Source: Platerodrilus igneus (Eukaryota > Arthropoda > Insecta > Coleoptera > Lycidae). From it: a stretch of DNA of 64,000 bases. The stretch covers positions 5,536,501 through 5,600,500 of the forward strand of contig JARFIW010000108.1 of the NCBI GenBank assembly GCA_036346225.1. The letters are read 5' to 3'. Shown here piece after piece: positions 18,940-40,102 of this stretch. Every line of letters starts with the position of its first letter. The stretch's first letter is position 1. Position numbers and translations under genes: made by a program. The notes beneath the pieces were generated by a model. It made no database searches. It had not been told where the DNA came from and saw only the letters and a program-made list of their open reading frames with translations.

Positions 18940-19047
18940 AGTAGGTGGTTTGTGCCGGTTCTGGGCCCTCATCCGCCTCCGCCGCCGCCTCCTCCGTCTC
19001 CGCCTCCTCCGCCGCCGCCGCCGCCGACTCCTCCTCCGCCGCCTTTG
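18940..19047 (+). repeat. Left terminus of the palindromic element with (CCG/CCT)n minisatellite
   Basis: The 29-bp terminus is followed at 18970-19045 by a run of CCG and CCT triplets. This creates long artificial Pro-rich and Glu/Ala-rich open frames on the two strands, which I do not treat as genes. Confidence 0.85.
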
Positions 19048-19640
19048 TTATCAATTAATATTAGATTTTTCTCAGCTACTCGAATTTCTAGGAATTTTTT
19101 AGGTAGCATCAGCCCCCAGGGAGCTACCCTCATTTTAAGATTTTTTTACCGCTAACATTCTGAACCAAATAGTTTTCTTCGACTAACCATTTTTCATCTT
19201 TCGAGATAAACCTATCTTGTTTGGATCAATTAATATTAGAATTTTCACAGCTACCCGAATCTTTAGGAATTTTTCAGATAGCATCACCCCCAAGGGAGCT
19301 ACCCCAATTTTAAGATTTCTTACCTGTAGCGACTTTTGAGCGTTCTTATAAATTTTACGCAGAATTCGAATCTGTAAACAGATTTGAAATCGGACCACGC
19401 CCTGCAAAGTTATACCCCTTTAAAGCTCTCAAACCTCTAAATTTTGCTCTTTGCTTTATAAGCAAAACTAACAAATAGTTTTCTTCGTCTAACCAATGCA
19501 TTTTTTGAGATAAACCTATCTTGTTTGGTATCAATTAATATTAGAATTTTCTCAGCTATCCGAATTTTTAGAAATTTTTTAGATAGCTCCATTCCATAGG
19601 GAGTTACCCGAATTTAAAATTTTTTTTTATCAATGTCGAT
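19048..19640 (+). repeat. Subterminal repeats of the palindromic element, left arm
   Basis: At least three diverged copies of a unit of roughly 140 bp run from 19048 to 19640. Each contains ATCAATTAATATTAGA, CAGCTA(C/T)CCGAAT, GATAGCATCA and GGGAGCTACCC. A fourth copy lies at about 21590-21750. Between copies sits a segment with GGACCACGCCCTGCAAAGTT (about 19395 and 21515). These are candidate transposase-binding repeats. Confidence 0.7.
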
Positions 19641-19867
19641 TTCTAATCAGCTATCCTTTTTAATATCTACAGTCCTTTAACCAAACTTGTACCAGTATTA
19701 ACATAAATAAATTAAGCACGCAAAAATTTAATAATTTATTTTATCCGATTTACAGTTTAATAAACTAATTACAAATTTTACAAAGTATAACATTTATCTT
19801 CTTCGTTTAACCAAATCCAAGCAGGTTAAAGTAACATGTAACAAAAAATAGAAATTAATGTGTTGTT

Positions 19868-20055
19868 TAAGAAATTAGGTTTGGACATTCTTTCAAAACA
19901 GATTGTGTTGATTTAATCATTTTATTTAAAGGAACTTCATTTTTACGTTTTTTGACTATTGGTCTGTAAGGACCCTCAGACAGCAAAGTCTCTACTCTAT
20001 CAACATAGTCTTGTTTATCCAGAATAACCAACCTATTCCCCTTATCAGCCTTTAA
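19868..20055 (-). pseudogene. PLE-2 inverted fragment of the reverse transcriptase N-terminal region
   Basis: Read on the minus strand it encodes ADKGNRLVILDKQDYVDRV and then LLSEGPYRPI. This is the conserved ADKG block and following spacer that lie upstream of the fingers in PLE proteins. Its orientation is opposite to the rest of PLE-2. The junction at about 20055/20056 skips the whole region between ADKG and YVDD. Confidence 0.8.
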
Positions 20056-20491
20056 TATGGTTAAGGTACGTGGATGATATTTTTGCAGTTTTTGACACTT
20101 CTAAATCAAATGTTGATGATTTTCTTAAAGAAATGAATTCAAAATTTCAAAGCATAAAATTTACGTATGAACTAGAGAATAATGGACAATTACCCTTTTT
20201 AGATACATTAGTAATTAGAAATGGTAATAAATTAGAATTTGACATTTATAGAAAAGAAACCAATGTAAATCGCTTTATTTTGTCTTCCTCTAATCATAGC
20301 ATACAACATAAGTTGGCTTCATTTAACTTTTTAATTAATAGATTATTGATTTTCCTTTAAATAAAAACAGATTTAATAAGGAATTTGCTCTTATTAAACA
20401 AATAGCGAATTACAATGGTTTCTCTTCTGATATTATAGATAATATTTTTAGAAAGTGTAAAAATAGGATCAACATCCGTAAATCAACGACT
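20056..20491 (+). pseudogene. PLE-2 reverse transcriptase, catalytic YVDD to thumb
   Basis: The frame starts within the catalytic box (YVDDIFAVFD at about 20066). It continues through FTYELENNGQLPFLD, a typical PLE stretch, and RFILSSSNHSIQHK, where PLEs carry N-x-H-S-x-H. A frameshift near 20345 separates it from the downstream piece, which continues (NRFNKEFALIKQIANYNGFS) to the endonuclease frame. Confidence 0.8.
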
Positions 20492-21001
20492 TTGCAATCA
20501 ACCACCTCTAACGATAATGTTAAATATGTTAAACTTCCGTTTCACAAAACTACAAAGGGTCTTGATAAAATATTCAAACAGTGTAATTTTAAAATTGCTT
20601 TCACTAATACTAATAAAATTAAAGATTTGCTAGGTAATCCAAAAGACAAGGGGGAAAAATTGCAAAAGTCGGGGATTTATGAAATTAGTTGTGCAGGGCC
20701 AGGGTGTTTTCAAAAATATATTGGTCAGACCAAGAGGAATATAACAACAAGATTTAAAGAACACATTGCTCACTTCAAATATGGTAAATATGAAAGGTCT
20801 CAGGTCGCCAAACATATATTTGAAACCAGCCACCCCGTTAAACTAGAAAATGTTAAATTGTTAAAAGCAGTACCAACGTTTTCCTCCTTAAATGCCTATG
20901 AATCAATTAAAATTGTTAAACATAAAGGACCCCTCTTAAACACCGATAAAGGGCCAATAGAGTCATCTGCTTTGCTTTCCCTATTGGTCAACAACCAATG
21001 A
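20492..21001 (+). CDS. PLE-2 GIY-YIG endonuclease domain
   Basis: Intact 169-codon frame with the Penelope-type nuclease. Motifs are GIYEISCAGPGC with FQKYIGQTKR directly after it, R-F-K-E-H (Arg and His of the active site), and E in the NAYESIKI segment near the end. It would make the target-site nick for PLE retrotransposition. The upstream part (LPFHKTTKGLDKIFKQCNF) is the usual linker. The copy as a whole is dead because its reverse transcriptase is incomplete. The opposite-strand frame 20630-20833 is a shadow. Confidence 0.85.
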   Translation: MQSTTSNDNVKYVKLPFHKTTKGLDKIFKQCNFKIAFTNTNKIKDLLGNPKDKGEKLQKSGIYEISCAGPGCFQKYIGQTKRNITTRFKEHIAHFKYGKYERSQVAKHIFETSHPVKLENVKLLKAVPTFSSLNAYESIKIVKHKGPLLNTDKGPIESSALLSLLVNNQ

Positions 21002-21109
21002 GAAAGCAAGATTAAATTGGTTCCGCTTCAGTAGGTTTAGAATTAGTATAAATTAAGTAGATTTAAGTTATAATGTCACAATTCACTTGTTTGTTGTTGA
21101 GAACACCAG

Positions 21110-21162
21110 CCAGGTTTTCTACTGATGATGGCCACATAGTGGTCGAAATACGTATTTAGTAA
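21110..21162 (+). ncRNA. Hammerhead ribozyme-like motif in PLE-2 3' region
   Basis: CTGATGA at 21122-21128 is followed by a 6-bp stem II (GGCCAC, loop ATA, GTGGTC; 21130-21144) and GAAA at 21145-21148. Together these are the invariant hammerhead core. After GAA comes the self-complementary ATACGTAT (21148-21155), which gives a very short stem III that would close best in a dimer. CTA (21119-21121) can pair with TAG (21157-21159) as a minimal stem I. Minimal type-I hammerheads are known in Penelope-like elements. Activity is not shown by sequence alone. Confidence 0.6.
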
Positions 21163-21981
21163 TTTAAATATTTTTTGTGGTTAAGGGTTTTTATTTAATT
21201 TTATTTAAATCGCTCTGAATTACATGTGGAAGCTGTATATAATTTCTTTTTAAAAGTGTATATCTTCTCCAAACAAATACGGTTATTACAGTAGGAAAGT
21301 ACGCTAAATGCGAGTCAATTAATAGCAATTTAATATTGCTTACTGATCTACCTTAATTAGGTTGCTGTACTATTAGGAACCATGTACTTTTTGTTGTCCT
21401 CGCCCGACAAACTGATTTTATTAATTAATTGGGTATAAAGTTGGTGTTTACATGGTTTCGTTTAAGACCTCGTACATATTTTCCGGATTACTAGAAGACG
21501 TTATGATTTAAAATAGGACCACGCCCTGCAAAGTTACATTTTAAAGCTCTCAAACCTCTAAATTTTGCCCTTTGCTCCCACATCTGAACCAAATAGTTTT
21601 TTTCGTCTAACCAATGCATCTTTCGAGATAACCCTATCTTGTTTGGTATCAAGTAATATTAGAATTTTCTCAGCTACCTGAATCTCTATGATATTCTTAG
21701 ATTGCATCATTCCCCAGGGAGCTACCCCAATTTTAAGATTTTCTGCATGCAGCGATTTTATGACCGTCCATATAAATTTTTTAACGATGTGACACATCTT
21801 GTTAGTCTAAAATTTTACGTAGAATCCGAATCTGCAAACAGATTTAAAATCGGATCATCCCTTACAAAGTTACTCCTTTAAAGTCTTAAACCTCTTTAAA
21901 TTGTTTTGCTCATCTATAACATATGCTTTAAACAACCATTTCTCTTGTATACAGAATACTTACTAATAAAGCAATTTAATT

Positions 21982-22188
21982 TTAAATAACTTCTACGCCA
22001 TATTTTTCGAAAATGGCAGGCTTGAATATTTTCTTTGGAAACAATCGAAGATTGCCGAAGACACTCGAAGATTGCACAAACGCGGTCACTAAACCACAAT
22101 TAATAATCGCCTTTATAGGTTTAACATTTTTACCATTACCCAATGACTTTAATTTCTTATTGGAGAGAATCCTTATTCTCCCACGCAC
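21982..22188 (-). CDS. Short ORF conserved in both arms, unrecognised
   Basis: A 68-codon frame (MRGRIRILSNKKLKSLGNGK at its start) is also intact in the right arm at 38036-38242, with two or three residue differences. It is Lys/Arg-rich with no known motif. A reverse-strand frame of 61 codons (22013-22198) is equally conserved, because the DNA is, so conservation does not prove coding. Reported as a weak candidate. Confidence 0.2.
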   Translation of the reverse strand: MRGRIRILSNKKLKSLGNGKNVKPIKAIINCGLVTAFVQSSSVFGNLRLFPKKIFKPAIFEKYGVEVI

Positions 22189-22590
22189 TGCTGCGTAGTT
22201 GCATGCCTACCCCTTTTGGGGGGTATATGCTCGCTGTAGGTTGTAAGATCCTCGGTTTTACTTAACTACACTTTGTGAGACCCCTTTAATCTTTTTAATC
22301 GTGTCCTTCTCGCGTACAATACAGTAGGACTTAGCCTTACTACCAACAAATTATAATACTAGACCCACATTAAAGTTGTCTTTGAATTTCTTTACAATTT
22401 TTTGTTAACATGCGGTGTATTGTGTTTATTATTTGCGGGGTACACCACTTGAAACCTAAAAATAAAAACAAGATAGTTTAATACGTCTATTAATAATTTT
22501 TGCTAATGTTGGCGATACAAATATGTAAAAACAAACTTTATCAAGAAAATATAATGTTTTTAATAGAATACATACATGTATTGATAACAT

Positions 22591-23094
22591 CTATAAACCG
22601 CTGTGGTAACCAGAGTCTGGCGAATCTGGGATAGCCAAATCTCTAAACATTTGCGCAAGCGATTGCCTTGTAGTTGCATCTTTTAAGTACTGGATGGGGA
22701 AACATTTAATAAGTTCCAACACTGTCAAGTAATTTAAATTGCTGCAATCATTAGACAGAGAAATACTGGCACTGCTCTCTCCCTCTAATAACGTTTGAAC
22801 CCTTTCTTCCTCCGTCGTATTTCCACATACTTTTTTTATATCACCAACAAATTTTTCGTAAAATTCTGGAAAGTTTCTACACCTTAACTCAGCCATTTTA
22901 AAACAGATTAATTCTCGCAAATTTAAAAGCTTGATGCACTCGTACGCAGGTAGCACAATAACATTCCGATCTTTCGTAATCTCCATATTATATAAATTCT
23001 CTTTTTCAAAATTGTTCAACAGCCATATACTTCTATTAAAGGCTGTGCTCAGCTGCAATTTTGAAATCTTGATCCAATTGTATGTCAACAACAT
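22591..23094 (-). CDS. Gene A, downstream reading frame (unknown protein), left arm
   Basis: 167-codon frame from 23094 down to 22591, unrecognised. The likely coding part begins where the upstream frame stops (about 23038). It contains FNRSIWLLNNFEKENLYNME, LRELICFKMAELRCRNFPEF, and a C-terminal region with TVLELIKCFPIQYLKDATTR and QSLAQMFRDLAIP. It looks mostly helical and acidic, with a Ser-rich hydrophilic stretch in the middle. It overlaps the upstream frame by 59 nt in the +1 register, so it may be the second half of one protein made by frameshifting or a separate gene. The right-arm copy (37137-37634) has a frameshift near 37365, so this left copy is the better preserved one. Confidence 0.5.
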   Translation of the reverse strand: MLLTYNWIKISKLQLSTAFNRSIWLLNNFEKENLYNMEITKDRNVIVLPAYECIKLLNLRELICFKMAELRCRNFPEFYEKFVGDIKKVCGNTTEEERVQTLLEGESSASISLSNDCSNLNYLTVLELIKCFPIQYLKDATTRQSLAQMFRDLAIPDSPDSGYHSGL

Positions 23095-23419
23095 CGTTTC
23101 CAGTAGTCAAACCATTTAATCTGACTTGTTTTGAGTCTTGAGCAAATTGGCGAATTTGAAATTCCACTTGAAAAGTACACAATTTCTTCCAATCAAAGTA
23201 AGAGAATGTTATCGTAGAATCAGCACACATACCACTACAGCAAATAACTTGGATGGCAGGTTGAAGACCACCATATAAATCAAAACCAACTTCTATTATA
23301 TGGTGGTGATGATTTGGAGGAAATTCGCCTAACCTATAGGTTGTCTTACCAAGTAGTTGGTTGATATTTAATTGTGGTACTCGCACATCACTTGTAACGT
23401 CAACACAAGAAAAATCCAT
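23036..23419 (-). CDS. Gene A, upstream reading frame (unknown protein), left arm
   Basis: 127 codons from an ATG at 23419, downstream of a TATA-like box at 23490-23498, which supports this start. It is unrecognised. Visible features are a polar N-terminus, FPPNHHHHIIEVGFDLYGGL, and a TITFSYFDWKKL segment of alternating hydrophobic residues followed by an amphipathic helix. The layout is vaguely like small single-strand-DNA-binding or PC4-like folds, but that is a guess. It ends AEHSL then TAA, immediately at the point where the +1 frame continues. The right-arm copy (from 36812) has an in-frame TGA near 36847 and a TAA near 37082, so only the left arm keeps this frame open. Confidence 0.55.
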   Translation of the reverse strand: MDFSCVDVTSDVRVPQLNINQLLGKTTYRLGEFPPNHHHHIIEVGFDLYGGLQPAIQVICCSGMCADSTITFSYFDWKKLCTFQVEFQIRQFAQDSKQVRLNGLTTGNDVVDIQLDQDFKIAAEHSL

Positions 23420-23489
23420 CTTTAACTTATAATTTTAATCAAACTCGACGATACTTTGACGACTAATGCACTGGAACATGGCTCTCTCG

Positions 23490-23498
23490 CCTTTTATG
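23490..23498 (-). promoter_or_regulatory. TATA-like box of gene A, left arm
   Basis: CATAAAAGG on the minus strand lies about 70 bp upstream of the gene A ATG. A TTAGTCGTC initiator-like sequence follows about 30 bp downstream. The same arrangement is kept in the right arm (36733-36741). Confidence 0.5.
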
Positions 23499-24105
23499 CC
23501 AATGGTCGAGCGTGCGCAGCTCCTTATTATGTTAGTTGGCGTTATATGCAAGTCTTGACTGGAAAAATGACGCGTATAATTGTTTTATAGTGGGTTTTAC
23601 CTGTATGTATTTAACCACCAACACCATTTTTAGAATTATTAAACAAAATTACTCTTAGCAGTATTTTTAATATACCGTCGTGTAAGATTTCAATTATTAT
23701 TGTGTTTTTCCTCAGGTTCTCAAATCCTTCGGAATTTTTTTCAAATCGAATGACCCCTTACTGATTTGCAAATTAACCTTTTGCAAGCACCGTATAAAAT
23801 TCACCTTTAATCTATTTTTAAACAGTATCGCTCTGTCTTTTGAGATAAACCCATGGTGTAACCTATAAAATTAGTATAGAATATTCCTGGCGAATTGAAA
23901 TTAATTATCACGTCTTTTAAAATTAGTTCCAACAAAGACCTGTATATATTGTATTAATATTCAAAAACCTATCAGCAAAACACCTTTGCATTTTTATTTA
24001 GATTTAGCTCGATAATAGAGTTAAACTCCAAAAATATTTATTAGTAGGTAGAATTGTTAAAATTTTCAATTAGTGAATCCACATACAAATGATTAAACCA
24101 AAAGG

Positions 24106-24109
<4 letters not shown>

Positions 24110-24157
<48 letters not shown>
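24110..24157. repeat. (TA)n microsatellite, left part, split by an LTR
   Basis: TA run between genes A and B. It continues at 26249-26290 on the other side of the inserted LTR. The uninterrupted homologue in the right arm is 36097-36124, and in the third copy 52605-52652. Confidence 0.85.
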
Positions 24158-24159
<2 letters not shown>

Positions 24160-26243
24160 CTGATATTTATACGAGGGTAGAAATTTAAATAATCGCATCA
24201 AATAATTTTAATCACCGTGTAGAAGCTTTGGGAAAAGGTACGCGTTATTAAAAAAAAACCGTGAAGCATAAAAATTCATTCGTTTTATTAAAAATAAGAG
24301 ATTTAAATTATTTATAAGACGCTTTATATAAAAGGAAGCAGTATTAGAAAACTTTACGTGTAATTTAATTATTCCTAGTAAAGAAACAAAGAGAAATTAC
24401 GTGCAAAATTTATATTAATTAACCCTATTTTAAGTAACCGGTATTAAACAAAATGTACTGATAATAATTGAATATTTAATTAGGATTCACTAAAAATTAA
24501 AGGGTATTATTTTAATTGGAGTTAATTGAACCGTTAGTAACAGACAATATCTATAAAAACTTGTAAAAACCCAATAAAATACCATGAAATAAAGCTCTGA
24601 GAATTAATAGTATGTTTGAACACCTGAGAATTTTGGAGAAACCGTAGCTTAATAGGTACGAGAAATGCTAAAGGTGGGTTATTTCACAAGTCCACATGGA
24701 CTGAAATAATCGATAATAAAGAATATCAATTTGCACCAATAAGAACAGGGTAGATAGAGACAGATAATATGCGCAAGACCGAGACACATATAGTAAAAGG
24801 CGTGAGTGGAGCAACGTCATTGGGTTGCGCTTGGGTGAAAATAAAAGGCAAAATTGAGAGGTAAAAATAACATTTCTGTATAAAATTCAATTAGTTATTT
24901 CCAGAAGTTGCAAGCCGTGTCGAAATTTCTGAGATGTAACTGGTGCGAGTGCAAATTTCGTAAAAATCGCATGCCGGGCTGCGGAATGGGAACCTAGCAT
25001 GCGAAATTCTTTAGAATTGTCCGTTTTGGGGAACAGACCGACAGACAGGCTAACCGCTATATATACCGAGGTTAATATGAACAAGCTCTCTTAGATTTTC
25101 GACTTGATTCAATGCGTTAAACAGTGCTTTTTAGTGTTCCGATTTTGATTAAATAATTTAAACAGTTTGCTCGTATATTTTGGTGATTTAAAAACAGTTT
25201 GTTCTTTACGTGCTACAATGAGTGTACTTTAGTGCACTTAGAAAAGAAGATACAAGGTAATAAAGTTTAGTATCACAGTACCAATTAGTCTAATTTGCAA
25301 CGACAAATGAATACACAAAAGTAGGCAGTTTTGGCGTATATTGGTGAAAAGAGCATGAATTTTTTTGCTATTTTTCGGGGGTGTTAATAATTAAATGGTT
25401 CATAAACATGACTGGGTCCACTAAACAAGGTTCAGATATACACAGATGAGTTCCGGAAAAGCCCTGAAACAACTTTAGATGAATGGTGGTGGAGAAATTT
25501 TAAAAGCGTTGATAATCAGAAGCCGTAAATATAACCCAGTTGGAATGGTGTGATTAACAAAGGGCGAGTACATTGAAGCTACGAGTGCAGTAACCTTCAG
25601 GTAAATTATATTATTTTGTTTGAACTTTGATGTTTTCGTGTGTGTTGAATAACTTTATAATTGATTTACTTAAAATGGACAGTAATGAAGTTGTACTAAC
25701 AACAAATTTTTAATTATAAGGTGAGATTTTCTTGTTTAAGTCGAAAGGAGTATTTAGTATTTATGTTCTGGATTATGATGAAAATTTGGGTATGTCTTTG
25801 AGCTCAATTAGACGAACCTGGTTAATTAACGTAAAGGGGTGGTAGATGCTCCCTTTGTACTCAGACTCAGGTCTGCATATATTGTTATATTAATTAGGAG
25901 GCATCCTACAAGGACTTTAATTTTGGATGCACATTAAAATGATAACAAATTTAAATCTTGAAATTTTCTGATACTGAAATTTATGCTGAATTTTTAATTT
26001 TGAAATTTTAATGTATTGTGAATATTGATGTAAATAGAGTTAACGTTGATGTTTGTGGTAGGAATGTGTTTGTTTTTTTTATGAATGAGGATGAAGGTTT
26101 ATCTAGGGGAGCAGCCGAGGCGATGAACAGAAGAAAGTCAATGGACCAACACAGTTAAGGTAATGAATAGCTTTTTGTAGGATTCACAGCATTCTTGACG
26201 CCCAATTCGTGAGGCTCGATTCTAATTAATAGAGGTTTCACAG

Positions 26244-26248
<5 letters not shown>
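24158..26248 (+). mobile_element. Gypsy-3-type LTR remnant (LTR + primer-binding site + LTR tip) inside (TA)n
   Basis: The sequence from 24158 to about 26195 is colinear with the Gypsy-3 5' LTR (59772-61905). It starts with the TTACTGATATTTA-like end and finishes TTCACAGCATTC. It is followed by a degraded primer-binding site (GACGCCCAATTCGTGAGGCT, about 26197-26216). A short second LTR tip follows (AGAGGTTTCACAGCATTC, 26231-26248), and then the TA repeat resumes. The right arm lacks this insertion. No coding sequence is present. Confidence 0.8.

Positions 26249-26290
<42 letters not shown>
26249..26290. repeat. (TA)n microsatellite, right part
   Basis: Second half of the TA run interrupted by the LTR remnant. 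Confidence 0.85.
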
Positions 26291-26294
<4 letters not shown>

Positions 26295-26758
26295 TTCTGC
26301 ACGGTGAGCTAGATAGTGGTTCGGTCTATTTTAAATGTAGTTCAACATAAGACGTATATTCTAAATAAATTTAGTGAAATGTATGATCATTAGCCTTGCA
26401 TTGTCTTGTCGATGACGTCTGACTATTAATTTAATAAAAGCACTTTCAAATTATAGTTAATATCAGGAACACACATTCTATAATTTGATTTAAATAGGGT
26501 TAATGTAAGGAAATTATCTTATACTTTCTCTATGTACATAAATCGGGAAATGATACCAAAAGTTCATTTTAAGTTTATTTTTGTAAAACGTAAAGTCGTT
26601 TATAGTGGTAATTAATAGTAATACAATTTTCCGTCTTTGAAAATTTCGTGTGAGGACTATCGACAAAGAAGAGTAAGTCTTAGTTTGAATTTTGCAAACG
26701 TAGAAGAAATAATATTTACATGTATAATTCAAAACTGTTAATCAATAATTTTTCTAGA

Positions 26759-27589
26759 ATGAACATCTTAAGTATTGCGTGCAGTGTGTGCGAAAATGTT
26801 TTACTGGGATGCCATAAAAAACACAACGAAAAACATCGAGATGGTTTATTTTCAGGAGGAACTAAAATTACAGCCAATGAGTGGGAACAAATTAAGGATT
26901 TGTAAAACCAATCGACCGCAGCGCATAAAGAACGTATAAACGCCGCAATTCAGTTAGAACGAACCAAGTTGCTATTTGAAAAACCATACACCATAACAAA
27001 ATCTTCTTCCAAAATCATAATTGTAGGCCTGAACCCGTTCGACGATTACAAAATAATTTTTAGATTTGTTGACACCATTTCGCAGAGCGTACTTGATGTA
27101 TCCCTCAACGTATTTAGGAAGTTTATATCAAATCTTCCACACATTATACGCACTATGGAAGTTGGCATGCGAAATCAGATATGCAAATTCGACAACTTGC
27201 GTTTTTATTTAAATAAAATTGTTTAGTGAAGATGATGACATTTGATGGGAATTATATGATATTTACCAAAGGAACTTTAGAGCACTTTTGGGGTATCTCA
27301 GATCGTTCTCAACCATGCTAATACTTTAAAAGAACTAACGGAAAAGGGTACTCTAATATAGATCTGTTTCTGTTAGATGTCGCAATGGAAAGATATAATA
27401 GGAATGATGTCTTACAGAATCTCGCACATGATGTAATTAAAAGCAAATACAGTAATAGTGATATTGGAGTCATATTATAAATTTATAAGAACCTACCCAA
27501 GATTGTTTGAAAACAGTATTTGTAAACAAGTTGAGTATATGGAAGAATACAACAGGTTTCCATTCCACGCATTTACGAGCGATGTTTAA
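26759..27589 (+). pseudogene. Gene B (unknown protein), left-arm copy, frameshifted
   Basis: Start ATG at 26759 follows a likely 5'-UTR intron: a GTAAGT donor at about 26671 and a TTTCTAG acceptor at 26751-26757. The frame begins MNILSIACSVCENV, with a CxxC pair, and is then broken near 26810, 26900, 27225, 27290 and 27475 by single-base changes. The body LLFEKPYTITKSSSKIIIVG and VRN-type segments match the better copy on the right arm. No known family was recognised. Its position between gene A and gene C is the same in both arms, with gene A transcribed the other way. Confidence 0.6.
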
Positions 27590-27773
27590 ATTTTAAGCCA
27601 AAGACTGAAAATTTTGTAACACTATTAATTACACTTTTGTTTTCTTATACGTTTCTAAATTGTTGTATTTCAACTACAGATATTAATAGCTGTCAATAAA
27701 ATTATGTTATAGTTTTAAATAAAACGATTCTGATTAATAATTTTGTAAAACGTTTATAACACCCTTTTAAAAA

Positions 27774-27978
27774 ATAATACACATCGTACTGAGCACAGTT
27801 CAGATGGTGCATATATTCACTTTAATGTACATGGGTTGATTGAAAGACTGCAGTTGCTAGTTACTGTTGATTATCACAACCATCGAGATATGCATAACCT
27901 AAATGAAATTATCTCTATAATATCTAAACTTCGACAAAAAGGAATTATAGAATAGAACGACAACAAAGTTAGATGGGA
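27774..27978 (+). other. Possible upstream exon of gene C, left arm
   Basis: An open stretch reads HFNVHGLIERLQLLVTVDYH and then NLNEIISIISKLRQKGIIE before a TAG, followed by a GGTAAAT donor-like site. The right arm (33050-33240, minus) retains the same reading and the same TAG. If it is an exon of gene C, the stop must be avoided by splicing; otherwise this is a separate short frame. Confidence 0.3.
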
Positions 27979-28037
27979 GGTAAATATTTATACATATTTT
28001 TCGAAATTGTAAAATTGGAATAGTCTGCATTTGCATT

Positions 28038-28499
28038 TTGATACGTAAACATCGTAATAAAAATGCGCGGGGAAAGAGAATTATATCTTTAGATGCTATA
28101 AAAATTTTAGAAGAAGTTGTCAAGGAGATGAAAAAAAGTTTATCAAACAATTCAACTAGCCAACATTTGAATGGTATGTCTAATGAATCTCTGGCAAATA
28201 CTAAAATAGTGCAAGATAAACCTACACATGATAATGTTGATGCGAAAGATCAGAACATAGACTCCAAGTCAGACGTTTCTGACAGAAAAAGAAAGAGACA
28301 ACTTAAATCGTATACTAAAGAGGATTTAAATAAAGCCCTTGACGAAATAAACAAAGGATGGATTACTGGTTCAGAAGCATCCGAAATCTACAATGTTCCA
28401 AAAGCTACACTCTATACGAAACTCAGATCAAACGAAAATCGTGTGCAAAATTTGGATATGTATACTACACATTTGACAATTAAAAGGAGGAAAAAGTGA
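28038..28499 (+). CDS. Gene C: pipsqueak-type helix-turn-helix protein, left arm
   Basis: An open frame of 153 codons with no ATG near its 5' end (it opens at TTG and reads IRKHRNKNARGKRIISLDAI). It is probably a 3' exon whose acceptor lies near 28023. The C-terminal third holds a basic run (RKRKRQLKSY) and a HTH_psq domain: YTKEDLNKALDEINKGW followed by TGSEASEIYNVPKATLYTKL. This is the standard spacing of pipsqueak-type DNA-binding helices found in insect BTB-psq factors and some transposases. The middle is Ser/Asn/Asp-rich and probably disordered. It ends in RRKK, a possible nuclear-localisation signal. It probably binds DNA in the nucleus, perhaps the element's own ends. The right-arm copy (32545-33000) is frameshifted. 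Confidence 0.65.
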   Translation: MIRKHRNKNARGKRIISLDAIKILEEVVKEMKKSLSNNSTSQHLNGMSNESLANTKIVQDKPTHDNVDAKDQNIDSKSDVSDRKRKRQLKSYTKEDLNKALDEINKGWITGSEASEIYNVPKATLYTKLRSNENRVQNLDMYTTHLTIKRRKK

Positions 28500-29440: not shown

Positions 29441-29449
29441 CCTAAATTG

Positions 29450-31040
29450 ACAACTATTTTCTTAATACATACATCTGACTTAGGTTGGGGTCAGCAAAAC
29501 AAAGTCTTCCGACGAAAGGGGTTATTTGGGAAGCATGAGCAATGGGGTAAGTCGAAATCTATGGATTACATTAACAAAAACAAACAGGCGCCACCAAGTC
29601 CAAATTGATTTATTTTACAAGCTATTTTTTTAAGGGGGACTTGGAGACCCAAAAAAAGAGATTTCGTTGAACACAAATTGTCTTAACAGAAAAACGCTGT
29701 TCCTGTAAGAAAGAATAATAATTAAGTCCCATAAAAATAACACTATTTGGTCCCTCAAGTATACCTAAAAGTATAGAGAATATTTTTGCATAATGGGATC
29801 ATAAAATTTTAGTTCTTATTGCTTTTTGTTTACCAAGTCTGATCAGACAGATCAGAAAAAAACTTTAAATGAAGAATATTAATTTACTAATAAGAATTTT
29901 CTTGGTTTCAGTAAATAAAGTATCATTGTAATTAAAAAAAATAAAAATTTGAAGACTTAAAACTGGTAGTAAAGGTTATCAACTAATCCTTACCAAATAT
30001 TTTATAATTTATAACTAAAAAATGCTAGAGTTTCTTTATAACCCAATCAGATCTTGTGAGTCATTTACAAATGAATATACGAAATTTTCTTTTAGGTTAA
30101 CAAACTTAAATTTAGTTTGAAGTCAAAATAATCACCAAGATATTTTAATGTTATAATAGTGGTTGTACTAAAATGCTAAAATTGTTAGTTAATTGGACAA
30201 TAGTGAACAAACAAACAGGTGATATAATAGCAGCTGTTAAATTACGTTGAAGCCACGTGTGATCACGTATTTAAACTAAGTGAAAGCAAATTTAATACGG
30301 GGAAAACCAGCTTATTTACAGGTAAACTGAATAAAATTTTGTACGTCTAACAAACAATGAAATAATGTACCAGAAGGAAAGTATAAATCCTTAATTCTAT
30401 TACGAACCCAAGAGCAGCAGTTGTTTGATGTAATGGAAATTACCCCAGCGCAACACAAAATTATACTTGCTTTCCATGCTTTAACACAGGTGTAGGAGCA
30501 AAGCGGGTTCCTTACTTGGATCACGGCAGCATTACTTTGTAACGTAACTTCCGTTGTCTAATTTATTTTAAAATAATTTTTCATTGCGTAGCCAACAAAT
30601 TAAGCTTTCTAAATTGTAACCAAAATTGTTGTCTCAAATTTTACAGTTGCGATTTTCACGGGGGAAATACGTTATCCATGCAGTTTTAATTTCTCGTTGG
30701 GATTTCAAATGTGTTAGTTCAAATGGTCGTTGCGAGTTCAAATGGGTCGTTCGGTTACTCAGGAAGTGTTTAAAACATAGAGCGACTCAGGTCACCGCCA
30801 TTCTCAGAATGCATCTTGACGCTACTTTTAACTATCGACGAGTGCGGTTTTCTTGTATGGTAGGTTCCAAGTTCTCGAACCTCTCACGCGCGCCATGGCT
30901 GTGAAATTACACCGAACTCGGAAACAACCGACTAATAATCCTTGATATTATAAACTATAAAAGTTTGATTGTTACTTAATATTTATTTTAATTAATGGTA
31001 TTTTACATTCATTGTACGTTTAATGAATGGATTCTCCTAG
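29450..31040 (-). mobile_element. LTR-B family copy (diverged) near the palindrome centre, left arm
   Basis: Colinear with the complete LTR-B at 43340-44893. It shares GGGGTAAGTCGAAATCT, GGCGCCACCAAGTCC (about 29588), GACTTGGAGACCC and CTGTTCCTGTAAGAAA, then weaker matches down to the AATAATCC region near 30930. The right arm has nothing at the mirrored point (about 31640), so this is a later insertion. Frames inside (30312-30524, 30626-30904) are not genes. Confidence 0.65.
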
Positions 31041-31224
31041 CAAAAAAAAGTTAAATATTTTAAACAAAAGTTTTTTTTAGTTTTAATGAATAAAATATTT
31101 TTGTGTTATTGTTTCAGTCCAGGTTGGATGTGGGGGGGAAAGGTTTGTCCGGAGTTGGTTTGTGGTTTTATAAAAGAAAAATTGATAGGTTAGGTGTTTT
31201 AGAGTTTTCTTTAAAACCCCAACA

Positions 31225-31440
31225 TAATCGCTTTTAATGAGTCCCACATTTTTTAATGGAAAAACTCAAAAAAGCGATTAGTGTTAATTTTTTAATGAGA
31301 AAACTCAAAAAGAATTAGTGCTAATGGGTTTTTAAAAGAAAACCCATTAAAAAGCAATTAGTGCTATTGGGTTTTAATGAAAAACTCATTAAACAGCGAT
31401 TAGTGCTAATGGGGTTTTAATGAGAAAACTCACAAAACAG
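31225..31440. repeat. Minisatellite at the centre of the palindrome
   Basis: Four to five imperfect units of about 45 bp built from AATGAGAAAACTCA, GCGATTAGTGCTAATGGG and TTTTT. The flanks at 31080-31200 and 31445-31570 are inverted copies of each other (GGTTGGATGTGG, TTGTCCGGAGTT, ATGAATAAA), so the arms turn around here. Confidence 0.75.
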
Positions 31441-32544
31441 CCTAATTCAATTTTTACTTTATCTAACCTAAGTCACAAACCCAGCTAACCTAGTAACTCC
31501 GGACAACACTAGCTAACCTTTGACAGCTCCACATCCAACCTAGGACAGATGCCAATAATAACATAGAAATATATTTTTATTCATTAAACTAATAAAATTG
31601 GTTGTTGGTATAACTTTGTGATATTGCAAAATATTAAACTATTTTTTATGGCATAATCGGATCAGGTCTAGTTGTGGGGTGTATTAATGGCAAAGTTCCT
31701 TGAATTTACCTCCATCAGAATAGTGAAATTGCCCCAAGGGTGAGAGTTTCCCCTAGGTCGAAATCCGACCAGATCGGATTTTAACCGACCCAGATCGGAT
31801 TTTAATCCGACCCGATCGGATAGCAAAACCGATAGCAAAACTGTTCCTAATCAAGAGAATGTACGGATATGGCGGTGTAACATATGTCCTGTCATCATAA
31901 CCGCAATTAATGTAGTATAATATTAGGGTATGTCATGCACATTATTAGTGAATGAAGTTGAGGTGTCCAACAGAGCGAATACATTTTCGTAACTACTTTA
32001 GATTTTGAATATTTTGGGGTTGTTTTTTAGTAGTTCTGACTTTTAATTTTAACATAAAACTGAAATTTTATACCCCTAACTCGTAATGTGTGTGCCACCC
32101 CTGCGCATGCGCACCCATGTCTAGCACCCTTGCGCGTGCGCAAGTTCATAGAATACATTCCATACCGGTTGTTCTCGTGCACACAAATCGGGTACAATCG
32201 GTACATATCCGAAGTATTGTTTAATTTTCAAATGTCCATGCAACTGAAATGGGTATCTAAGTTCTTATGAAAAGAATTATAACAAAGATACATTTAATTT
32301 TAATAGAAATGAGTACAACTGCGTGTTTGAAACATACCTTTAGTTTAAAATTTTTTTGTTCGACTTCTATGATATTACATAAACCAGGATTCTGCTACTG
32401 CTTGAGTAATTTATCCAACAATACCATTATATATAAATAAAACCAAAACGTTTGAAGCAATATTTATATTTCAATTCAAATACTTAACAGGTACACTTCC
32501 ATAGAAATATATTTTTATTCATTAAAACTTAACACACGCAAAAG

Positions 32545-33000
32545 TCATTTTCCTCCTTTTATTTGGCAAATGTGTAGTATACATATTTGCCAAATTTTAC
32601 ACGATTTTCGTTTGATCTGAGTTTCGTATAGAGTGTAGCTTTTGGAACATTGTAGATTTCGGATGCTTTAACCAGTAATCCATCCTTTGTTTATTTCGTC
32701 AATGGCTTTATTTAAATCCTCTTTAGTATATGATTTGTTGTCTTTCTTTTTACCAGAAACGTCTGACTTGGAGTCTATGTTCTGATCTTTCGCATCAACA
32801 TTATCATTGAGGTTTATCTTGCACTATTTTAGTATTTGCCAGAGATTCATTAGACATACCATTCAAATGTTGGCTAGTTGAATTGTTTGATAAACTTTTT
32901 TCATCTCCTTGACAACTTCTTCTAAAATTTTATAGCATCTAAAGATATAATTCTTTCCCGCTCATTTTTATTACGATGTTTACTTATCAAAATGTAAATG
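32545..33000 (-). pseudogene. Gene C (pipsqueak HTH), right-arm copy, broken
   Basis: Inverted counterpart of 28038-28499. The HTH region and Ser/Asn-rich segment are recognisable on the minus strand. Single-base indels near 32660, 32740, 32815 and 32905 break the frame. The probable upstream exon is mirrored at 33050-33240. Confidence 0.6.
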
Positions 33001-33276
33001 CAGACTATTCCAATTTTACAATTTCGAAAAATGTATAAATATTTACCTCCCATCTAACTTTGTTGTCGTTCTATTCTATAACCTTTTGTCGAAGTTTAGA
33101 TATTATAGAGATAATTTTTTAGGTTTATATCTCGATGGTTGTGATAATCAACAGTAAAGCAACTGCAGTCTTTCAATCAACCCATGTACATTAAAGTGAA
33201 TATATGCACCATCTGAACTGTGCTCGTACGATGTTATTATTTTTAAAAGGGTGTTATAAACGTTTTACAAAATTTA

Positions 33277-34625
33277 GATGAGATACTACGGAGTAACTAT
33301 AGTATGAGAATTAACTTAAAGACAAAGATAATGACAAGTGAGTTACAGCCTAGTTCTAAACCAAAATTAAAAATAGGTAATACCGAGTTAGAGGAGGTAG
33401 ATGAATTTTGCTATTTAGGTATATAATTACAAAGGATGGACGTAGCAGAAGGGATATAGTAGAAATAGCTCAAGCTAGAAAAATGTTTTAAAAGAAAACT
33501 TACTAAATAGTATTAGTTTAGATAATAGAAAAGTTTCTTAAAGTCGTACGTATGGAGGTTCTACTATACGGTAGTGAGACTTGGACAATTAAAGAAGTAG
33601 ATAAGAAAAAGAAGCTTTTGAAACTTGGTGTTATAGGAGAATGTTAAAGATTAGTTGGACAGATAGAGTAACAAACGAGGAAGTTTATAAAGGAATGAGG
33701 ATCCCGTATTGGAAACAAAAGGTCAGGAGAGATAGAATGATAGCACCAGTTGACAAGGGACTATTTAGTAAAGTCTTAGATTTAGACTCCAAATAAAAAT
33801 AGAGTAAAGGCCTAGACAAATATATTAGTCAAATTATTAGAGATTTAGGTTGTGAAAAATTTTAGACTAGCTCAGAATAGAAAAAATTTAGAGCTTGTCA
33901 AACCGACTTTAAGTAAGTTCGAAAACAAAACAAAAAAAAAAAAAAATTAGTTAACTAAGGTCACCATGACATAACTCACAATTAGTTAGCGGTCTGGCAT
34001 GTTGGTAGCGTTTCTTTTAAGCCTTACCATAACATATAATTTTAAACGTCACCAGACATAACTCACAATTAGGTAGCGGTCTGGCATGTGGGTAGCGTTT
34101 CGTTGTTAAGCCTTACCATAACATATAATTTAATAAACGTCACCATGACATAACTCACAATTAGGTAGCGGTCTGGCATGTGGGTAGCGTTTCGTTGCTT
34201 AAGCCTTACCATAATATATAATTTAAGAAACGTCACCATGACATAACTCACAATTAGGTAGCGGTCTGGCATGTTGGCAGCGATTCGTTGCTTAAGTCTT
34301 ACCATAACATATTATTTAACACTTTTCATTTTTGAAGCGGATAACCAGGTTATATTTCATTTCCTTATAAATGGTAATCATGGTAAAAATGGTAATCATG
34401 TAAACATGTTAGAGTTCTTTAACAACCATCAGGTTGCTAATATCTATGTAGAGTCAGCTGGATAGGAAAAAGATAGAAGGATTTAGGAAGATCTAGACCA
34501 AACTATATTAGTCAAATTATTAGAAATTTAGGTTGTGAAGGGTATGTAGAGCTTTTTTAGATTAGAAAAGAAGTTAGAGCTGCGTCAAACCGACCTTAAG
34601 TAAGGTCGAAAACAAAATGATGATG
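33277..34625 (+). mobile_element. Non-LTR (LINE) retrotransposon fragment in the right arm
   Basis: The mirrored left-arm site (about 27745) is uninterrupted, and ACAAAATT repeats on both sides. The 5' part (33330-33780) encodes, with frameshifts, the C-terminal region of a LINE reverse transcriptase: LKIGNTELEEVDEFCYLG, then LLYGSETWTIKEVDKK, then MLKISWTDRVTNEEVY. Two copies of the 3' tail (ATATTAGTCAAATTATTAGA to TTCGAAAACAAAA) occur at 33820-33930 and 34500-34620. Between them is a 4-unit tandem repeat. The second tail ends ATGATGATGAC. Confidence 0.75.
33955..34318. repeat. Tandem repeat, four 91-bp units, inside the LINE fragment
   Basis: Units start GTCACC(A)TGACATAACTCAC at about 33960, 34049, 34139 and 34231, and contain GGTAGCGGTCTGGCATGT. 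The repeated open frame on the minus strand is a by-product. Confidence 0.85.
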
Positions 34626-34782
34626 ACAAAATTATTAATCAGAATCGTTTTATTTAAAACTATAACATAATTTTATTGACAGCTATTAAAATCTGTAGTT
34701 GAAATACAACAATTTAGAAACGTATAAGAAAACAAAAGTGTAATTAATAGTGTTACAAAATTTTCAGTCTTTGGCTTAAAAT

Positions 34783-35636
34783 TTAAACATCGCTCGTAAA
34801 TGCGTGGAATGGAAACCTGTTGTATTCTTCCATATACTCAACTTGTTTACAAATACTGTTTTCAAACAATCTTGGGTAGGTTCTTATAAATTCGTATAAT
34901 ATGACTCCAATATCACTATTACTGTATTTGCTTTTAATTACATCATGTGCGAGATTCTGTAAGACATCATTCCTATTATATCTTTCCATTGCGACATCTA
35001 ACAGAAACAGATCTATATTAGGAGTACCCTTTTCCGTTAGTTCTTTTAAAGTATTAGCATGGTTGAGAACGATCTGAGATACCCCTAAAAAGTGCTCTAA
35101 AGTTCCTTTGGTAAATATCATATAATTCCCATCAAATGTCATCATCTTCACTAAACAATTCTTATTTAAATAAAAACGCAAGTTGTCGAATTTGCATATC
35201 TGATTTCGCATGCCAACTTCCATAGTGCGTATAATGTGTGGAAGATTTGATATAAACTTCCTAAATGCGTTGAGGGATACATCAAGTACGCTCTGCGAAA
35301 TGGTGTCAACAAATCTAAAAATTATTTTGTAATCGTCGAATGGGTTCAGGTCTACAATTATGATTTTGGAAGAAGATTTTGTTATGGTGTATGGTTTTTC
35401 AAATAGCAACTTGGTTCGTTCTAACTGAATTGCGGAGTTTATACGTTTTTTATGCGCTGCGGTCGATTGGTTTTACAAATCCTTAATTTGTTCCAACTCA
35501 TTGGCTGTAATTTTTAGTTCCTCCTGGAAATAAACCATCTCGATGTACCTTTCGTTGTGTTTTTGTGGCATCACATCCAGTAAAAACATTTTCGCACACA
35601 CTGCACGCAATACTTAAGATGTTCATTCTAGAAAAA
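34783..35636 (-). CDS. Gene B (unknown protein), right-arm copy, best preserved
   Basis: The 208-codon frame 35409-34783 is intact, and the likely true start is the ATG at 35636-35634 (MNILSIACSVCENV). The two are separated by one or two single-base changes near 35465-35570. The encoded protein has an N-terminal CxxC, a charged linker (ERINAAIQLERTKLLFEKPY), a beta-rich segment (SSSKIIIVDLNPFDDYKIIF) and mixed helices to the end (FHAFTSDV). About 280 residues are expected in total. I do not recognise the family and can see no catalytic signature. The neighbours are gene C upstream and gene A downstream in the same arm, as on the left. A third, truncated copy lies at 51785-52136. Confidence 0.6.
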
Positions 35637-36092
35637 TTATTGATTAACAGTTTTGAATTATACATGTAAATATTATTTTTCTACGTTTGCAAAATTTAAA
35701 CTAAGACTTACTCTTCTTTGTCGATAGTCCTCACACGAAATTTTCAAAAACGGAAAATTCTGTATTACTATTAATTACCACTATAAACGACTTTATGTTT
35801 TACAAAAATAAACTTAAAATGAACTTTTGGTATCATTTCCCCCGTATTTATGTACATAGAGAAAGTATAAGTATAATTTGTCCTTACATTATCCCAATTT
35901 AAATCAAATTATAGAATGTATATTAACTAGAATTGCGGAAAGTGCTTTTATTAAATTAATAGTCAGACGTCATCGACAAAACAATGCAAGGCTATTGATC
36001 ATACATTTCACTAAATTTATTTAGAATATACGTCTTTTGTTGAACTACATTTAAAATAGACTATCGAACCACTTTCTAGCTCACCGTGCAGA

Positions 36093-36096
<4 letters not shown>

Positions 36097-36124
<28 letters not shown>
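36097..36124. repeat. (TA)n microsatellite, right arm
   Basis: TA run at the same position as 24110-24157 / 26249-26290 in the left arm, uninterrupted here. Confidence 0.85.
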
Positions 36125-36128
<4 letters not shown>

Positions 36129-36811
36129 CCTTTTGGGTTAATCATTTGTATGTGGATTCACTAATTGAAAATTTTAACAATTCTACCTACTAATAAATAT
36201 TTTTGGAGTTTAACTCTATTATCGAGCTAAATCTAAATAAAAATGCAAAGGTGTTTTGCTGATAGGTTTTTGAATATTAATACAATATATACAGGTCTTT
36301 GTTGGAACTAATTTTAAAAGACGTGATAATTAATTTCAATTTGCCAGGAATATTCTATACTAATTTTATAGGTTACACCATGGGTTTATCTCAAAAGACA
36401 GAGCAATACTGTTTAAAAATAGATTATAGGTGAATTTTATACGGTGCTTGCAAAAGGTTAATTTGCAAATCAGTAAGGGGTCATTCGATTTGAAAAAAAT
36501 TCCGAAGGATTTGAGAACCTGAGGAAAAACACAATAATAATTGAAATCTTACACGACGGTATATTAAAAATACTGCTAAGAGTAATTTTGTTTAATAATT
36601 CTAAAAATGGTGTTGGTGGTTAAATACATACAGGTAAAACCCACTATAAAACAATTATACGCGTCACTTTTCCAGTCAAGACTTGCATATAACGCCAACT
36701 AATATAAGGAGCTGCGCACGCTCGACCATCGGCATAAAAGGCGAGAGAGCCATATTCCAGTGCATTAGTCGTCAAAGTATCGTCGAGTTTGATTAAAATT
36801 ATAAGTTAAAG

Positions 36812-37634
36812 ATGTTTTTTTTTTGTGTTGACGTTACAAGTGATGTGTGAGTACCACAATTAAATATCAACCAACTACTTGGTAAGACAACCTATAGATT
36901 AGGCGAATTTCCTCCAAATTATCACCACCATATAATAGAAGTTGGTTTTGATTTATATGGTGGTCTTCAACCTGCCATCCAAGTTATTTGCTGTAGTGGT
37001 ATGTGTGCTGATTCTACGATAACATTCTCTTACTTTGATTGGAAGAAATTGTGTACTTTTCAAGTAGAATTTCAAATTCGCTAATTTGCTCAAGACTCAA
37101 AACAAGTCAGATTAAATGGTTTGACTACTGGAAACGATGTTGTTGACATACAATTGGATCAAGATTTCAAAATTGCAGCTGAGCACAGCCTTTAATAGAA
37201 GTATATGGCTGTTGAACAATTTTGAAAAAGAGAATTTATATAATATGGAGATTACGAAAGATCGGAATGTTATTGTGCTACCTGCGTACGAGTGCATCAA
37301 GCTTTTAAATTTGCGAGAATTAATCTGTTTTAAAATGGCTGAGTTAAGGTGTAGAAACTTTCCGAATTTTACGAAAAATTTGTTGGTGATATAAAAAGTA
37401 TGTGGAAATACGACGGAGGAAAAAGGGTTCAAACGTTATTAGAGGGAGAGCAGTGCCAGTATTTCTCTGTCTAATGATTGCAGCAATTTAAATTACTTGA
37501 CAGTGTTGGAACTTATTAAATGTTTCCCCATCCAGTACTTAAAAGATGCAACTACAAGGCAATCGCTTGCGCAAATGTTTAGAGATTTGGCTATCCCAGA
37601 TTCGCCAGACTCTGGTTACCACAGCGGTTTATAG
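36812..37634 (+). pseudogene. Gene A, right-arm copy, broken
   Basis: Inverted counterpart of 22591-23419. The start region has an expanded T run after the ATG at 36812. In-frame stops lie near 36847 and 37082, and frame breaks near 37365 and 37430. It keeps the same stop-then-plus-one junction (CTTTAA at about 37189-37194) as the left copy. A TATA-like box is at 36733-36741. Confidence 0.65.
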
Positions 37635-38035
37635 ATGTTATCAATACATGTATGTATTCTATTAAAAACATTATATTTTCTTGATAAAGTTTGTTTTTAC
37701 ATATTTGTATCGCCAACATTAGCAAAAATTATTAATAGACGTATTAAACTATCTTGTTTTTATTTTTAGGTTTAAAGTGGTGTACCCCGCAAATAATAAA
37801 CACAATATACCGCATGTTAACAAAAAATTGTAGAGAAATTCAAAGACAACTTTAATGTGGGTCTAGTATTATAATTTGTTGGTGGTAAGGCTAAGTCCTA
37901 CTGTATTGTACGCGAGAAGGACACGATTAAAAAGAATAAAGGGGTCTCACAAAGTGTAGTTAAGTAAAACCGAAGATCTTACAACCTATAACGAGCATAT
38001 ACCTCCAAAAGGGGTAGGCATGCAACTACGCAGCA

Positions 38036-38242
38036 GTGCGTGGGAGAATAAGGATTCTCTCCAATAAGAAATTAAAGTCATTGGGTAATGGTAGAAATGT
38101 TAAACCTATAAAGGCGATTATTAATTGTGGTTTAGTGACCGCGTTTGTGCACTCTTCGAGTGTCTTCGGCAATCTTCGACTGTTTCCAAAGAAAATATTC
38201 AAGCCTGCCATTTTCGAAAAATATGGCGTAGAAGTTATTTAA
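38036..38242 (+). CDS. Short conserved ORF, right-arm copy
   Basis: Counterpart of 21982-22188, 68 codons, intact. The coding status is doubtful for the same reason as the left copy. Confidence 0.2.
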   Translation: MRGRIRILSNKKLKSLGNGRNVKPIKAIINCGLVTAFVHSSSVFGNLRLFPKKIFKPAIFEKYGVEVI

Positions 38243-39399
38243 AATTAAATTGCTTTATTAGTAAGTATTCTGTATACAAGAGAAATGGTTGTTTAAAGCA
38301 TGTGTTATAGATGAGCAAAACAATTTAAAGAGGTTTGAGACTTTAAAGGAGTAACTTTGTAAGCGATGGTCCGATTTTAAATCTGTTTGCAGATTCGGAT
38401 TCTACGTAAAATTTTAGACTAGCAAGATGTGTCACATCGTTAAAAAATTTAAATGGACGGTCATAAAATCGCTGCATGCAGAAAATCTTAAAATTGGGGT
38501 AGCTCCCTGGGGGATGATGCAATCTAAGAATATCATAGAGATTCAGGTAGCTGAGAAAATTCTAATATTACTTGATACCAAACAAGATAGGGTTATCTCG
38601 AAAGATGCACTGGTTAGACGAAAAAAGCTATTTGGTTCAGATGTGGGAGCAAAGAGCAAAATTTAGAGGTTTGAGAGCTTTAAAATGTAACTTTGCAGGG
38701 CGTGGTCCAATTTTAAATCATAACGACTTCTAGTAATCCGGAAAATATGTACGAGGTCTTAAACGAAACCATGTAAACACCAACTTTATACCCAATTAAT
38801 TAATAAAATCAGTTTGTCGGGCGAGAACAAAAAAGAGTACATCATTCCTAATAGTACAGCAACCTAATTAAGGTAGTTCAGTAAGCAATATTAAATTGCT
38901 ATTAATTGACTCGCATTTAGCGTACTTTCCTACTGTAATAACCGTATTTGTTTGGAGAAGATATACACTTTTAAAAAGAAATTATATACAGCTTTCACAA
39001 GTAATTCGGAGCGATGATTACGCCAAAGTCAACCTTCCCATTTATATATTAAAAACACATTACATTGGAATGTTTTTACATAATTCTCATATTGTTAGAT
39101 TAACAACAATATGTCTTATTGACCGAAAACACGTCTCCTCTTTTTTACATTAATCTCTTTTTGGTATAGGTCTTTTTTAAACAACACATTAATTTCTATT
39201 TTTTGTTACAGGTTACTTTAACCTGCTTGGATTTGGTTAAACGAAGAAGATAAATGTTATACTTTGTAAAAATTGTAATTAGTTTATTAAACTGTAAATC
39301 GGATAAAATAAATTATTAAAATTTTGCGTGTTTAATTTATTTATGTTAATACTGGTACAAGTTTGGTTAAAGGACTATAGATATTAAAAAGGATAGCTG

Positions 39400-40018
39400 A
39401 TTAGAAATCGACATTGATAAAAAAAAATTTAAAATTCGGGTAGCTACCTAGAGAATGGCGCTATCTAAAAAATTCCTAAAAATTCGGATAGCTGAGAAAA
39501 TTCTTTGATACCAAACAAGATAGGTTTATTTCAAAAGATGCATTGGTTAGACGAAGAAAACTATTTGTTAGTTTTGCTTATAAAGCAGAGCAAAATTTAG
39601 AGGTTTGAGAGTTTTAAAGGGGTATAACTTTGCAGGGCGTGGTCCGATTTCAAATCTGTTTACAGATTCGAATTCTGCGTAAAATTTAATGTATCGCATG
39701 ACTAAAAAAATTTATAAGAACGCTCAAAAGTCGCTACAGGTAAGAAATCTTAAAATTGGGGTAGCTCCCTTGGGGGTGATGCTATCTGAAAAATTTCTAA
39801 AGATTCGAGTAGCTGAGAAAATTCTAATATTAATTGATACCAAACAAGATAGGTTTTCTCGAAAGATGAAAAATGGTTAGTCGAAGAAAACTATTTGGTT
39901 CAGAATGTTAGCGGTAAAAAAATCTTAAAATGAGGGTAGCTCCCTGGGGGGTGATGCTATCTAAAAAATTCCTAGAAATTCGAGTAGCTGAGAAAAATCT
40001 AATATTAATTGATAACAA
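39400..40018 (-). repeat. Subterminal repeats of the palindromic element, right arm
   Basis: Inverted counterparts of the left-arm units at about 39400-39540, 39730-39880 and 39905-40018. A further copy lies at 38470-38640. Confidence 0.7.
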
Positions 40019-40019
40019 A

Positions 40020-40102
40020 GGCGGTGAAGAAGGAGGAGGCGGCGGCGGCGGCGGAGGATGAGGCGGAGGCGGAGGGCCCAGAACCGGCACAAACCACCTA
40101 CT
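40020..40102 (-). repeat. Right terminus of the palindromic element with (CGG/AGG)n minisatellite
   Basis: Inverted counterpart of 18940-19047, slightly different in triplet order. It ends at 40102 against the CATGAT duplication. Confidence 0.85.

Follow-up and report, generated by a model that had tools for sequence, protein, structure and literature searches.

Is a transposon that consists almost entirely of two inverted arms a class of its own, or the derivative of something known? The question is raised by an element at positions 18940-40102 of a 64,000-nucleotide window (the whole stretch of DNA analyzed, from contig JARFIW010000108.1) of the beetle Platerodrilus igneus, a locus referred to here as C108. 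A preliminary description had left two answers standing: a new class with giant terminal inverted repeats (TIRs) holding its whole gene set, or a non-autonomous palindromic derivative of Polintons. The first is not supported by our analysis. The element is very probably a non-autonomous palindromic Polinton/Maverick derivative, since both its AGTAG ends and its gene remnants have counterparts in a Polinton found elsewhere in this genome. AGTAG ends, 6-bp duplications, remnants of DNA polymerase B (PolB) and of an ATPase, and Polinton relatives all point this way, and a Polinton integrase would have inserted it.

A palindrome nested in a complete Gypsy element

The main parts of the element are as follows.

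18934-18939: target site duplication CATGAT, left
18940-31249, plus strand: left arm (BLAST), including three left-only stretches (later inserts)
31250-31437: central minisatellite with a unit of about 42 bp
31438-40102, minus strand: right arm (BLAST)
40103-40108: target site duplication CATGAT, right

The ends are identical over 31 letters read inward from 18940 and from 40102, slightly more than the 29 bp first claimed, and the predicted CATGAT duplication lies on both sides. Insertion into a Gypsy frame, restored on removal of the element, was also borne out: when 150 bases of each flank were joined locally, a single open Gypsy frame was recovered. The host Gypsy is complete, with long terminal repeats (LTRs) at 18565-18714 and 45655-45802 that differ at 6/147 sites (4.1%), and is itself flanked by ACTAT on both sides. 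No inverted match was found between the two flanks of the element. Because the Gypsy is complete, the joined frame is open and the flanks are not mutual inverted copies, a fold-back or missed-adapter artefact is unlikely; misassembly is likewise unlikely, given that an element with identical ends, CATGAT and two arms interrupts an otherwise complete Gypsy.

When the left half was aligned by BLAST to the reverse-complemented right half, five colinear blocks were obtained, summing to 7186 bp on the left and 7211 bp on the right, with 157 bp extra on the right only. Arms of about 7.2-7.4 kb meeting at the minisatellite agree with the preliminary estimate of two 7.3-kb arms that meet near 31.3 kb.

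18940-19874 / 40102-39173: arm block, 91% identity
21209-24137 / 39015-36097: arm block, 98%
26257-27746 / 36128-34626: arm block, 96%
27739-29399 / 33274-31630: arm block, 89%
31072-31242 / 31597-31384: arm block, 69%

Relatives share ends and 6-bp duplications

The assembly (GCA_036346225.1; 2.71 Gb, 1723 contigs) was searched with a 201-base tip query; of 946 candidates, 40 were scored, and these yielded 51 matches. We read 14 loci, 13 reached through tip-query matches (the window locus included) and one, C776, through gene B of the arms (see below); they are not a random sample. Long inverted arms (>1 kb) are present in seven loci (C108, C766, C1110, C731, C1275, C1441, and C776), while three have both ends and no long arms (C1365, C975, and C254) and four were assigned to neither class (C405, C811, C188, and C1496). 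The preliminary description had taken single-arm copies as the normal form to count against it; both kinds occur among these non-randomly chosen loci. C254 has only one arm, with a TIR of 480 bp joined near the centre, and may represent the ancestral layout or a palindrome that has lost one arm.

The search bore out the expectation that other copies would have the same kind of ends. AGTAG is the common start, and equal 6-bp flanks occur in all seven loci with both ends read, four palindromic and three not (CATGAT, ATCCAA, ATTATA, GAGTTG, CCGGAA, TATTCC, and AATCAT). Among 1595 AGTAG..CTACT pairs 3-25 kb apart, eight had equal 6-mers vs. about 0.4 expected at 1/4096; these eight are the seven two-ended elements, with the window element counted twice. 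The ends of the palindromic C1110 match those of the non-palindromic C1365 at 27/30 letters.

The internal layout is shared as well. C776, read except for its outer left end, is colinear with the window element from gene A to gene A through the centre: each of its arms keeps the order in which gene A, gene B, the Psq block and the centre follow one another here. It lacks two of the left-arm inserts of the window element. A centre marker, either the minisatellite or its right flank, was found in C108, C776, C1110, C1275, and C1441, and arm length varies between copies.

The arms hold remnants of Polinton genes

C1365 is a damaged, non-palindromic Polinton of 14066 bp with the target site duplication CCGGAA. 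Its frames include a double jelly-roll domain (PF21738, 7.5e-48), C2H2 fingers, and a Pox_A32-type ATPase (3.8e-5) that follows a Psq domain. Its PolB is split over several frames; the PolB, protease and integrase labels come from motif reading, with PolB also identified through the protein matches of a relative, C975. From this second PolB-bearing element a 392-residue PolB piece was compared with proteins, and 7354 of the 7994 scored matched it. Of the 120 listed, those with names came mostly from insects, and several were annotated as DNA-directed DNA polymerase or carried PF03175. Against solved structures this piece gave one chance-level match (E 0.32). Elsewhere in C975 (L033, 2298-2672) there is a phospholipase A2-like domain (PF08398, 6.5e-10).

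The preliminary description had found none of the Polinton genes in the element, which does not hold. When the 13 frames of C1365 were used as tblastn queries, PolB C-terminal pieces and gene A were recovered in both arms, while the left arm also gave a remnant of the ATPase C-terminus. The PolB remnants scored E 3e-14 to 2e-6, with no matches in the reversed-sequence control. The coding features are listed below.

21360-21507, minus strand: internal-deletion junction of PolB (N-terminal side 21507-21451; C-terminal side 21458-21360, in another frame), mirrored at 38717-38864 (plus)
22261-22404, minus strand: remnant of the PolB C-terminus, matching C1365 at 65% identity over 48 residues, mirrored at 37821-37964 (plus)
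22594-23434, minus strand: gene A, homologue of an uncharacterized Polinton open reading frame (ORF), as two overlapping open frames (23039-23434 and 22594-23106), mirrored at about 36851-37625 (plus)
26780-27690, plus strand: gene B of the left arm, interrupted
34786-35472, minus strand: gene B of the right arm, a 229-residue open frame
27764-27952, plus strand: C-terminal remnant of the Polinton ATPase ORF
27984-28496, plus strand: ORF with a Psq helix-turn-helix (PF05225, 2.3e-5), mirrored region 32532-32944

The PolB deletion junction is common to seven of the 14 loci (C108, C766, C1110, C405, C188, C1496, and C1441) and is present in both arms in three. The sequences that it brings together are separated by about 2.8 kb in C1365 and about 3.0 kb in C975. 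A 236-residue frame in C1110 (both arms) and C776 (left arm) joins the Psq end to the ATPase C-terminal end, the core being absent. PolB in the window element is limited to C-terminal remnants and the deletion junction, with no intact gene found. The integrase (RVE) frame of C1365, a C-terminal half, had no match there, and from the capsid, protease and packaging ATPase frames only the ATPase C-terminal remnant was matched. Elsewhere in the genome, integrase gave at least 150 matches scored of 11661 candidates.

Genes A and B probably do not define a new class

Some features of gene B speak for a self-moving transposon of a new class, with genes A and B and the Psq ORF as its full gene set. 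Gene B has at least 150 matches, scored of 4428 candidates in the genome, at 88-97% identity (self excepted), and about 105 of the 150 have no internal stop (counted by hand). Its ratio of nonsynonymous to synonymous polymorphism (pN/pS) is 0.25 in 10 copies, a value biased downward because the copies chosen were the best protein matches. Moreover, the frames of genes A and B gave no Pfam family. Gene B and one gene A piece had no homologue among 5.8 billion clustered proteins or in scans of viral contigs, where the end pattern was also unmatched; gene B thus has no relative outside this genome in either collection.

However, no transposase or integrase domain was seen in genes A and B, and the PolB and ATPase debris together with Polinton-type ends and duplications tie the element to Polintons. 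Gene A of C1110 is 80% identical to a frame of the PolB-bearing C975. A new class is improbable and not supported, because non-palindromic relatives (C254, C975, and C1365) exist and the searches of the arms revealed no gene for replication or integration in intact form.

Gene B matched none of the 13 frames of C1365, and its origin as a paralogue of gene A was not supported (hhalign probability 0.1). Two single-sequence structure predictions were poor (mean predicted local distance difference test scores of 35 and 37). A likeness of gene A to the single-stranded DNA-binding protein PC4 is an unsupported impression. Rfam gave nothing at gathering scores. Five gene B pairs among the 150 matches lie on the same contig less than 40 kb apart (four of them within 5 kb), and all five are convergent, as expected from palindromes.

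Comparison with known elements

A Foldback/Galileo-like cut-and-paste element whose TIRs had grown to fill it is very unlikely. The Galileo report describes first known copies that were purely long TIRs, internal repeats, and TIR length that varies between copies (PMC3573991), and the long, internally repetitive arms of variable length found here are alike in these respects. In contrast, that report places Galileo in the P-element transposase family, with 7-bp flanks and TIRs of 18-1250 bp in D. mojavensis (PMC3573991), whereas the duplications here are 6 bp, PolB remnants are present, and no P-type transposase was matched by Pfam in the frames searched (part of all frames).

As a Polinton/Maverick, the element is typical in its AGTAG ends (AG...CT with a TIR), 6-bp duplications, PolB and ATPase remnants and gene A homologue; a vertebrate study likewise gives Maverick ends in which AGT occurs twice, (AGT)2 (PMC8097293). 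It differs in that no intact PolB, integrase, capsid or protease was found in it, and in its arms of 7.2-7.4 kb, whereas the TIRs of intact Mavericks in vertebrates span 46-1447 bp (PMC8097293). Cryptophyte Polinton-like viruses have duplications of 4-6 bp and TIRs that range from hundreds to thousands of bp, but are recognized by morphogenesis genes (PMC12220804). The string "palindrom" is absent from the main text of that description (PMC12220804). Searches of titles and abstracts, with subscription journals and preprints mostly outside them, gave no palindromic Polinton under palindromic, inverted-duplicated, foldback or miniature Polintons, nor any description of one under palindromic derivatives of protein-primed replicons.

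The palindrome is probably older than its insertion

Substitutions between the arms amount to 3.5% at the tip, 1.7% in 21209-24105 and 2.0% in 26292-27746. Within 27747-29399 they climb from 0.9% to 21% (137/1589 overall), and next to the centre they reach 26% (45/171). Since the host LTRs differ by 4.1%, the age of the insertion is bounded. The central divergence exceeds that of the LTRs (45/171 vs. 6/147, Fisher p 2.5e-8) and therefore arose before the insertion, provided that the mutation rate at the centre is not exceptionally high; the palindrome is probably older than its insertion here. The 27747-29399 block as a whole did not differ significantly from the LTRs (p 0.059), and neither did the tip (p 0.81).

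A rise toward the centre was not seen in the six other palindromes, in which the arms, compared in windows of up to 500 columns, are 0-4.5% apart, with C1110 as the exception (6.5% in the first window and 5.5% in the last 55 columns); for C776 and C1441 these windows cover inner parts of the left arm only. A one-off palindrome, made at this locus by inverted duplication or assembly fold-back, is scarcely credible: homopolymer indels typical of noisy long reads do occur in the window, but the duplications of both element and host Gypsy are intact, the flanks are unrelated, the centre is more diverged than the LTRs, and three other palindromes have duplications of their own.

The arms of the window copy are a mosaic

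Seven arm blocks (tip, gene A, mid, mid2, b1, b2, and b3) were compared with other loci. The two arms of the window element are mutually nearest in the gene A block (1.2% vs. 4.0% to others) and in mid2 (152 bp; 1.3% vs. 4.1%), and barely so at the tip (3.1% vs. 3.4%). In mid they are 3.4% apart vs. 1.8% to other loci, and in b3 10% apart vs. 8.4-8.6%. In b2 they are 6.0% apart, and the left arm is only 0.9% from C1110. For b1, C776 is a closer match to the left arm than the right arm is (2.3% vs. 3.7%), and the right arm is equally far from C1110 (3.7%). Similar unevenness is seen in other palindromes: the arms of C776 are 0.0-0.1% apart in b2 and b3 and 2.6% in b1 (2.3% to the window element), and those of C1110 are 0.6-0.7% apart in b1 and b2 and 2.4% in mid (1.4% to C766). 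We dropped homogenization of both arms along their full length as an explanation, because blocks mid, b1, b2, and b3 show that it is not the rule in the window copy. Instead, later homogenization within the element was probably only partial, with some exchange between it and other members of the family, so that the window copy is a mosaic.

A possible origin through protein-primed replication

The current view is that Polintons replicate as linear molecules whose ends are primed by protein, although such replication is not known to have been observed directly in animals. Palindromic defective genomes are known from other protein-primed replicons, such as adenovirus and yeast killer plasmids, in which an end joined to its complement keeps two origins. 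The palindromes described here would be alike in origin; unlike them, those of adenovirus and killer plasmids are extrachromosomal and not integrated families.

A corresponding sequence of events can be proposed. Relatives lost the PolB core yet kept both ends, a step that is observed. A replication intermediate may then have been copied into its own complement, or two half-molecules may have been joined, giving an inverted dimer round one centre. PolB supplied in trans would copy this linear element from both ends, and a Polinton integrase supplied in trans would insert it, as the ends and duplications suggest. Palindromes at different sites, each with its own 6-bp duplication, are observed in four copies.

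Several observations weigh against the reading as a Polinton derivative. It presumes an intact integrase and PolB acting on these ends, and the integrase frame of C1365 is a C-terminal half alone, identified by motif reading. Two PolB pieces of C1365 have no Pfam match, and one of C975 reaches PF03175 at just 3.6e-4, below the cut-off. End sequences diverge between lineages beyond AGTAG, the only part of its end that the window element shares with C1365. Additionally, no inverted repeat occurs in the 19.8 kb read at C405, two of the palindromes, C766 and C731, gave no sign of the centre marker, and four of the seven arm blocks lack a clear mutual nearest kinship of the arms.

We offer only tentatively, as a possibility that we hold at well below even chances, that the palindromes form a lineage of their own, established as satellites of Polintons. 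Like defective interfering genomes, they would have dropped the replication and packaging cores and doubled their ends, with genes A, B and Psq selected to compete for the Polinton polymerase and integrase. An integrated palindromic family would be the expected leftover of errors in protein-primed replication, and Polinton replication might be traced, as in a fossil record, from the junctions and arm mosaics of such a family. It also suggests a route by which virus-like transposons shed satellites that spread in a genome.

Inserts and other observations

The remaining features of the element include stretches found in one arm only.

18973-19626, plus strand: subterminal GC-rich (CCG)n tract with direct repeats of about 100 bp, mirrored at about 40070-39421
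19875-21208: left-only insert, candidate Penelope-like element, with reverse transcriptase and GIY-YIG-like motifs read by eye
24137-26257: left-only insert within a (TA)n tract, with a related repeat at 59727-61940; missing from the corresponding place in C776
29400-31071: left-only insert, missing from the corresponding place in C776
33274-34626: right-only stretch with a 93-bp minisatellite
39016-39172: right-only stretch of 157 bp

Pfam searches of two frames of the 19875-21208 insert gave no support for a Penelope-like reading. The stretch at 33274-34626 may partly have replaced native DNA, because C776 has about 0.7 kb of other sequence there.

Among the relatives, a 517-residue open frame (L024, 4953-6503) lies mostly in the spacer of palindrome C731; it has no Pfam match and is possibly structural. 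The single-arm C254 contains a nested Gypsy and a BEL-like element, assigned by motif reading (L035-L037).

Elsewhere in the window, a 1.29-kb piece at 51785-53073 resembles right-arm positions 35270-36555 and is nearly identical to them save for mostly homopolymer indels. It lies inside the gag of a second Gypsy, about 0.4 kb of which seems to have been replaced, since the related gag frame of L035 has 147 residues there. We considered it as a further copy of the element but regard it as a captured (repair capture) or assembly-derived fragment. The pol of this second Gypsy (54612-57439) is open but split into overlapping frames, which could reflect homopolymer errors of long-read assembly. 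Finally, a 262-residue ORF at 46838-47623, near the Gypsy, encodes a C2H2 zinc-finger array.

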